64,000 bases of DNA, taken from the NCBI RefSeq assembly GCF_021555155.1, contig NZ_JAKGBU010000008.1, positions 20,488 through 84,487 of the forward strand. The letters are read 5' to 3'. Origin of the DNA: Rhizobium alarense. GTDB lineage: Bacteria; Pseudomonadota; Alphaproteobacteria; Rhizobiales; Rhizobiaceae. The stretch's first letter is position 1, and every line of letters starts with the position of its first letter. Below are positions 29,058-29,976 of the stretch, one piece after another. The notes under the pieces are model-generated. The model did no database searches, had not been told where the DNA came from, and saw only the letters and a list, made by a program, of their open reading frames with translations. The translations under genes were made by a program, and so were the position numbers.

Positions 29058-29087
29058 CTTGCGCCGAACACGCCCAGTCCCCATATT
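29058..29087 (+). promoter_or_regulatory. RpoH (sigma-32) type heat-shock promoter of hsp20
   Basis: CTTGCGC at 29058-29064 and CCCCATATT at 29079-29087 are separated by 14 bases. This matches the heat-shock consensus CTTGAAA-N13-15-CCCCATnT very closely in the -10 half. The start point would fall near 29094, giving a leader of about 55 bases. Confidence 0.6.
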
Positions 29088-29096
29088 GCTGAATAT

Positions 29097-29143
29097 CAAG
29101 GCGCCGGTTTCGGGCCTTGGGATGGTCGCTTGAAGGCAAGGAC
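29097..29143 (+). promoter_or_regulatory. ROSE-like RNA thermometer in the hsp20 leader
   Basis: Two hairpins are visible. The first pairs CAAGGC (29097-29102) with GCCTTG (29114-29119). The second pairs GTC-CTTG (29125-29132, with a bulged G at 29128) with CAAGGAC (29137-29143), closing an AAGG loop. The 3' arm contains the Shine-Dalgarno AAGGA (29138-29142), seven bases before the ATG, and the opposing strand reads TCGCT. That is the U(U/C)GCU-opposite-AGGA arrangement with bulged G known from rhizobial ROSE elements, though this leader is shorter than most. Confidence 0.55.
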
Positions 29144-29149
29144 TAGCGC

Positions 29150-29581
29150 ATGTCGAGAATGACTCCCTTCACAAGCCCGCTTCTGCTGGGCTTCGATGCC
29201 ATGGAAAAGACCCTTGAGCGTATTGCCAAGGGCAACGATGGCTACCCTCCCTACAATATCGAACGCCTTCGCGCCGACGACGGCGCCGGCCTGCCGGAAC
29301 GGCTTCGCATCACGCTTGCCGTCGCCGGCTTCTCCGAGGAGGAGCTGGATGTGACGACCGAGGAGAACCAGCTTGTCGTGCGCGGTCGCCAGAACGACGC
29401 CGGCGAGCGGGACTATCTCTACCGCGGGATTGCAGCCCGGCAGTTCCAGCGCATGTTCGTCCTCGCCGACGGAATGCGCGTGCTCGGCGCCGAATTGCGC
29501 AACGGCCTGCTCTCCATCGACCTCATGCGGCCGGAGCCGGAACGCATGGTAAAGAAAATTAACATTTCCGTACCAGACTAG
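29150..29581 (+). CDS. Small heat-shock protein (Hsp20/IbpA family)
   Basis: Alpha-crystallin-type holdase that binds unfolding proteins during heat stress. The 143-aa protein has a short N-terminal arm (MSRMTPFTSPLLLGFDAMEK) like the IbpA-type class A of rhizobia. The crystallin domain runs at about residues 36-130 (IERL...LRITLAVAGFSEEELDV, GRQN...DYLYRGIAARQFQRMFVLADGM) with the LRNGLLSIDL strand, and a C-terminal KKINIS patch follows. The gene has its own RpoH-type promoter and a hairpin over the ribosome site, so both transcription and translation should respond to heat. A DUF1150 gene follows on the same strand. Confidence 0.93.
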   Translation: MSRMTPFTSPLLLGFDAMEKTLERIAKGNDGYPPYNIERLRADDGAGLPERLRITLAVAGFSEEELDVTTEENQLVVRGRQNDAGERDYLYRGIAARQFQRMFVLADGMRVLGAELRNGLLSIDLMRPEPERMVKKINISVPD

Positions 29582-29718: not shown

Positions 29719-29976
29719 ATGGGACTGAAGTCACTTACCCCCCAGGTTTCGAAGGCGGACCTCGCGCATCTCGGCGCAGGCGAAGTCGGCTATATCCGCA
29801 AGATGCGCGCCGACGAGGTATCGCGCTGCTTCCCGGAAGCGCCGGAAATCGATCCGGATCTCGATCTGTGGGCTCTTTTCGGGGCGGACGGCACGCCGAT
29901 CCTCCTGACCGACAACCGCTCCAGCACCTTCTACAAGGCGGCCGAAGACGAGCTGCGCACCGTCAGCCTGCACTGA
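29719..29976 (+). CDS. DUF1150 family protein
   Basis: Small protein of 85 aa from the DUF1150 family, found in alphaproteobacteria, often right after an Hsp20 gene. It starts MGLKSLTPQVSKADLAHLGA and has the conserved GEVGYIRKM and the DLDLWALFGADGTPILLTD stretch. The ATG at 29719 is supported by GGAGG at about 6 bases; the open frame reaches further upstream to 29638 but has no similarity there. Function unknown; co-occurrence with Hsp20 suggests a stress role. The stop is 12 bases from the convergent trmB stop. Confidence 0.85.
   Translation: MGLKSLTPQVSKADLAHLGAGEVGYIRKMRADEVSRCFPEAPEIDPDLDLWALFGADGTPILLTDNRSSTFYKAAEDELRTVSLH

Follow-up and report, generated by a model that had tools for sequence, protein, structure and literature searches.

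The hsp20–DUF1150/larA mRNA of Rhizobium alarense is, very probably, driven by RpoH and headed by a ROSE-type leader in which two hairpins hide the Shine-Dalgarno (SD) sequence until warming opens it: the same leader design stands before the same gene pair across most Rhizobiaceae and in other alphaproteobacteria, which makes a heat-opened switch of this type by far the best reading. Such a leader is ancient and nearly always accompanies the hsp20–DUF1150 pair in the Rhizobiaceae and well beyond, yet the public RNA library misses it.

The locus and its promoter

The locus lies in a stretch of 64,000 nucleotides (hereafter the window) of a 5.2-Mb genome of the Rhizobiaceae, with Shinella, Mycoplana and Ensifer as kin. 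Its features, with the grounds for each, are the following:

29058..29064, + strand: -35 element of a sigma-32/RpoH-like promoter, CTTGCGC (sequence; conserved spacing)
29079..29087, + strand: -10 element, CCCCATATT (sequence; conserved spacing)
29094..29149, + strand: predicted 5' untranslated leader, about 55 nt (start site placed from the position of the -10 element)
29097..29119, + strand: hairpin 1, CAAGGC-G-CCG / GUUU / CGG-GCCUUG, bulged G at 29103 (fold and leader alignment)
29124..29144, + strand: hairpin 2, the predicted thermosensor, GGUC-G-CUUG / AAGG / CAAGGACU, bulged G at 29128 (fold and comparison)
29126..29130, + strand: anti-SD motif UCGCU (ROSE consensus U(U/C)GCU; PMC3669281, PMC12857270)
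29138..29142, + strand: SD sequence AAGGA, 7 nt upstream of the start codon
29150..29581, + strand: hsp20, encoding an IbpA-like small heat-shock protein (sHSP) of 143 aa, ATG at 29150 (PF00011, E 5.7e-17)
29719..29976, + strand: gene for a DUF1150 protein of the LarA family (PF06620, E 3.6e-30; NF052376 above its cut-off)

The hsp20 product also matches the IbpA model NF008013 (E 7.3e-31), under that model's cut-off. The pair is flanked upstream by a divergent nucleoside hydrolase gene and downstream by trmB, which faces it, and the sHSP–DUF1150 linkage was found in all 80 orthologous loci retrieved. According to PMC10665427, LarA, the DUF1150 protein of Caulobacter, is a heat-shock protein that activates Lon and is encoded in a sigma-32-driven operon with an sHSP gene. 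The Caulobacter shsp2–larA operon shares with the window the order sHSP gene, then DUF1150/LarA gene, and is under sigma-32 control; it differs in that no thermometer is described for it in the passages considered.

The window promoter reads CTTGCG-N16-CCCATAT, i.e. it has the elements and the spacing of the RpoH type, for which the RpoH1 consensus is CTTGAA-N15-16-CCTATAT (PMC4843759). The sigma-32-type promoter proposed in a preliminary description of this DNA (CTTGCGC / CCCCATATT) is indeed there, with a fixed spacing that is conserved across orthologues: in 170 of 214 upstream regions of orthologues, CCATAT begins 23 nt after the start of CTTG. From these sequences we infer that the promoter depends on RpoH. 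An apparently broken promoter in Agrobacterium, with CTTG and CCATAT 15 nt apart, was discarded as such, as inspection of the sequences by eye revealed a second CCATAT at the usual 23 nt.

Fold and conservation of the leader

The best structure returned by RNAfold (-22.9 kcal/mol) holds both hairpins and pairs the SD sequence with UC-G-CUU around a bulged G. The outer pairs of hairpin 2 (numbering 29xxx) are G124-U144, G125-C143, U126-A142 and C127-G141; G128 is skipped, and the inner pairs C129-G140, U130-A139, U131-A138 and G132-C137 close the loop AAGG. AAGGA lies entirely within this hairpin, while the AUG is unpaired and outside both hairpins. The claim made beforehand that a hairpin buries AAGGA opposite UCGCU, with a bulged G (G29128), is therefore borne out by the predicted fold; its wording, "the last hairpin", is right for the SD hairpin and has to be completed by the upstream hairpin (29097-29119), which is real and conserved as well.

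Folding energy alone is unremarkable (z -1.6, 13 of 200 shuffles being as good; +0.4 with the coding sequence included). Folding at the two temperatures put forward in the preliminary description, 25 and 42 °C, predicts a rise in SD opening from 0.01–0.09 to 0.08–0.30, values that vary with the stretch folded and that leave the opening at 42 °C only partial. With the same folding procedure, the longer ROSE elements of Rhizobiaceae gave 0.04–0.09 at 25 °C and 0.09–0.27 at 42 °C, so that the predicted responses are comparable within the limits of crude folding models; many orthologous leaders showed little predicted temperature change, or a different predicted fold. The evidence that goes beyond chance is comparative and does not come from fold stability.

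We aligned 50 distinct leaders, picked by protein similarity alone. Both hairpins are kept, with 95.4% of the cells of the alignment paired, and the structure has a covariation score of 0.222, compared to 0.098 in shuffles: none of 500 shuffled alignments reached the score, and no version of the structure slid along the alignment came near that of the true register. The two hairpins are conserved in different ways. Hairpin 1 shows two-sided changes in seven of its nine pairs, with a covarying lower stem, whereas hardly anything changes in hairpin 2, be it in UCGCU, at the bulged G (G29128 in 50/50) or in AAGGA. In a wider set of loci, the U131-A138 pair of hairpin 2 is U-A in 129, C-G in 53 and U-G in 16, G124-U144 is G-U in 93, A-U in 33 and U-A in 28, and G125-C143 is G-C in 199 of 201; the core positions of this set prove nothing by themselves, because the motif search had selected them. 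Compensatory changes in hairpin 1 and in the flanks of hairpin 2 thus keep the pairing in relatives; a lack of such conservation, one of the outcomes named beforehand as refuting the proposal, did not occur.

A covariance model built from the 50 leaders (R1) found a single convincing site in the genome of origin (E 6.9e-9; next match E 5). Among 151 genomes of Rhizobiaceae it matched 45, at one site each, and all 45 sites lie directly before hsp20 followed by DUF1150. A second model (R2) recovered it from further families of the same order, where the 30 loci retrieved all precede hsp20–DUF1150. The leader is exclusively linked to this gene pair. Outside the order R2 matches were mostly not before hsp20; the compact model being weak there, the core motif was checked at hsp20–DUF1150 loci instead. 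Of 26 such loci, sampled from the wider class with the genome of origin left out, 25 have the core within 50 nt upstream of hsp20 (shuffle mean 1.1).

The UCGCU/AGGA core with its bulged G is present in 80/80 of the orthologues retrieved with their loci. An orthologue exists in 134 of the 151 Rhizobiaceae genomes, and 76 of the 89 orthologues missed by R1 have a fully paired core, which brings the orthologues with the core to 121 of 134, compared to 0.9% of shuffles (37/4280). The other 13 had no ROSE core by the search used; some of them may have a misassigned start codon or have lost the leader.

Relation to known thermometers

The leader has the hallmarks of ROSE-like thermometers: a U(U/C)GCU motif imperfectly paired with the SD sequence in the last hairpin (UCGCU/AGGA, 29126-29142), a bulged G in the anti-SD strand (G29128), and a position in the 5' UTR of a small heat-shock gene of an alpha- or gammaproteobacterium. 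ROSE-like thermometers are 60 to over 100 nt long with two to four stem-loops (PMC10474464); the window leader has two, in about 55 nt if its start site is correctly placed. The fold also agrees with the short form known from Pseudomonas: two hairpins, G-C pairs flanking the core (G125-C143 and G132-C137), and an unpaired AUG. The Pseudomonas ibpA leaders, 61–62 nt long and with two hairpins, are experimentally verified ROSE-like thermometers in which the second hairpin melts and in which removal of the bulged G stabilizes the SD/anti-SD pairing, resulting in repression (PMC3669281). Since the two-hairpin architecture of the window leader is the same, it joins this known kind. The suggestion of a compact ROSE variant consequently holds as regards a short, two-hairpin leader of ROSE type, but such a leader is not unprecedented, given the Pseudomonas examples (61–62 nt, PMC3669281). 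The differences are that Pseudomonas belongs to another bacterial class, that the window leader precedes DUF1150/larA, and that in the rhizobial compact leader hairpin 1 bulges out a conserved G within its GCC...GGG core (a comparison made with sequences other than those of Pseudomonas).

The longer rhizobial ROSE elements described by RF00435 share with the compact leader a bulged G both in the SD core, which is of the UUGCU/AGGA type, and in the first hairpin, as well as a downstream sHSP gene. The model of these elements has 94 positions; a GC-rich hairpin stands at its centre, and its long final hairpin also encloses the AUG, features that the compact leader lacks. Rfam searches at gathering and relaxed thresholds gave no ROSE-type match in the window, and RF00435 gave none at E<=10 in the region, the leader falling short of the gathering score of 45 bits. 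This model scored above its cut-off in 28 of the 151 Rhizobiaceae genomes, never at an orthologous compact-leader site; in the genome of origin it has one weak match (E 1.8), at neither hsp20. The RF00435 search that the preliminary description had recommended was thus negative at the leader and at every orthologous site, because the model describes the longer ROSE form. The leader is a compact ROSE-like form that escapes the public model, and not a regulator of a new kind.

Two other thermometer classes were considered and rejected: fourU, as the strand opposite the SD sequence is UCGCUU and not four consecutive U, and ROSE-G, whose CUGCU carries a bulged G facing another one in the SD strand (PMC12857270), in place of the UCGCU and single bulge found here. 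The E. coli ibpA leader (PMC10474464) has in common with the window leader the UCGCU/AGGA SD motif and upstream hairpins with bulged Gs; it is longer and has more hairpins, and protein binding has been demonstrated for E. coli whereas it is hypothetical for the window leader.

The gene adjoining metK in S. meliloti is, we take it, SMc01106 and not ibpA. Two ROSE elements have been listed in this species, before ibpA and SMb21295 (PMC2873474). In Mesorhizobium loti, the class A sHSP genes are all reported to have ROSE elements (PMC3989490), a report that may already include the compact-leader orthologue.

Proposed heat control and possible roles of hairpin 1

The translational step of our preferred reading is modelled on the Pseudomonas ibpA leaders. 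After heat stress, RpoH (sigma-32) would drive transcription of hsp20–DUF1150/larA. At growth temperature the two hairpins would form, with AAGGA paired to UCGCU around the bulged G in hairpin 2, and the SD sequence so paired would be out of reach of ribosomes. Upon warming, the short and defective helix of hairpin 2 would open and translation start, the start codon being outside the hairpin, while hairpin 1 would be an upstream element with a part in folding, in mRNA stability or in the binding of a factor. In this scheme the transcript start site, the melting of hairpin 2 at physiological temperatures and the control of translation by the leader are all deduced, and so is the "double heat control" by promoter and thermometer that the preliminary description had envisaged. 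If translation of DUF1150 is coupled, an activator of the Lon protease would come under thermometer control as well, beyond the sigma-32 transcription and Lon turnover known in Caulobacter.

A simpler account would have heat control purely transcriptional, via RpoH, with a constitutive ribosome-binding site whose pairing is incidental. The promoter is well conserved, the folding energy by itself is unremarkable (z -1.6), and the Caulobacter operon has been accounted for by sigma-32 and Lon turnover, thermometers going unmentioned in the part of PMC10665427 considered. We nevertheless hold this account to be very unlikely: conservation of the SD sequence leaves unexplained an invariant anti-SD motif with a bulged G just upstream of it, as well as the changes on both sides of pairs in hairpin 1 and of U131-A138. 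Still less credible, to the point of being almost dismissible, is a switch between two folds, in which UCGCU gives up the SD sequence (GGACUU) to AGGUCC, the 3' arm of hairpin 1. Several Rhizobium leaders (e.g. L042 and L055) have this alternative as their minimum-energy fold, but the AGGUCC arm is absent from the window and from Mesorhizobium-like leaders, the alternative pairing is not conserved, and the SD sequence would be hidden in either fold.

One report invites caution about the heat-opened reading in individual species: Agrobacterium HspC is reported not to be heat-inducible (PMC3504140). In Agrobacterium-like genomes, recognised by their telomere resolvase gene, the chromosomal orthologue carries the compact leader; it is probably hspC. 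If so, a compact leader is no guarantee of heat induction in every species; low transcription is perhaps the cause here.

The bulged G of hairpin 1 (29103) and the adjacent C-G pair are invariant in 50/50 leaders. Leaders were scored for a hairpin with a bulged G, at least 4 outer pairs and a sufficient number of inner ones. Such a hairpin is present in 177 of the 203 leaders of the Rhizobiaceae set, and the same search with A, C or T as the bulged base succeeds in 11–12 of them; the class set gives 24 of 26 with G, 3–11 with another base and 26% in shuffles. A looser form of the test, applied to 30 ibpA leaders from the phylum, did not discriminate (G in 25/30 versus 59% in shuffles). A bulged G in a GCC...GGG core, found alike in this hairpin, in rhizobial ROSE elements of the longer form and in E. 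coli ibpA, may be a new observation. It gives a concrete lead on the role of the 5' hairpins of ROSE elements, a question posed in PMC3669281.

One possibility is that the hairpins form a binding site through which the sHSP keeps its own translation down until it is titrated by aggregates, as in the case of E. coli IbpA; temperature would then act mainly via the protein and not via RNA melting. E. coli IbpA binds its own 5' UTR in a manner that needs R93 and in which Y34 matters too, both residues being described as conserved among the IbpAs of alphaproteobacteria (PMC10474464); they are invariant in 131/131 aligned proteins of the window Hsp20 family, where position 97 is R or K throughout. 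Thermosensing by hairpin 2 leaves the conserved bulged G of hairpin 1 unexplained, and hairpin I is dispensable for thermoregulation in Pseudomonas (PMC3669281). On the other hand, K98, which is required in E. coli, is not conserved in the window family, Y34 and R93 could be kept for chaperone reasons, and Vibrio-like leaders do without the bulged-G hairpin, yet a Vibrio IbpA represses itself (PMC10474464). Self-repression is moreover compatible with melting, and both may act. Given a conserved hairpin 1 bulge and invariant R93 and Y34 (K98 not being so), docking of the sHSP on hairpin 1 is possible but unproven; as the main route by which temperature acts, we regard self-repression as a tentative and rather unlikely alternative to the heat-opened switch. 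We consider more doubtful still the broader proposal that the bulged-G GCC...GGG hairpin is a second conserved ROSE building block serving as an sHSP docking site, so that the leader would sense both temperature and free chaperone, and gate LarA too.

Related hairpins occur in other leaders, albeit not universally: the bulged-G GCC...GGG hairpin was not found in six Vibrio-like leaders. In the longer Rfam ROSE elements of Rhizobiaceae, the first hairpin mostly has a bulged G (GGUCGCC...GGGACC). The E. coli K-12 ibpA leader (L288, 1924-2040) and seven leaders of close relatives have two upstream bulged-G hairpins, of the ACGC-G-CC...GG-GUGU and CCU-G-UCC...GGA-AGG types. The second hsp20 of the genome of origin (contig C121, 3893-4255), whose product is 62% identical to E. 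coli IbpA, has a leader with a ROSE-type SD hairpin (GUCGCU...AGGAGGAC), several upstream bulged hairpins and no RF00435 match. Finally, the second hsp20 paralogue of Agrobacterium-like genomes is preceded by tandem bulged-G hairpins of the GGUCGCCAGAACGGGGCC and AUCGCCAGAACGGGAU types, followed by a UCGCU/AGGAGGA hairpin.
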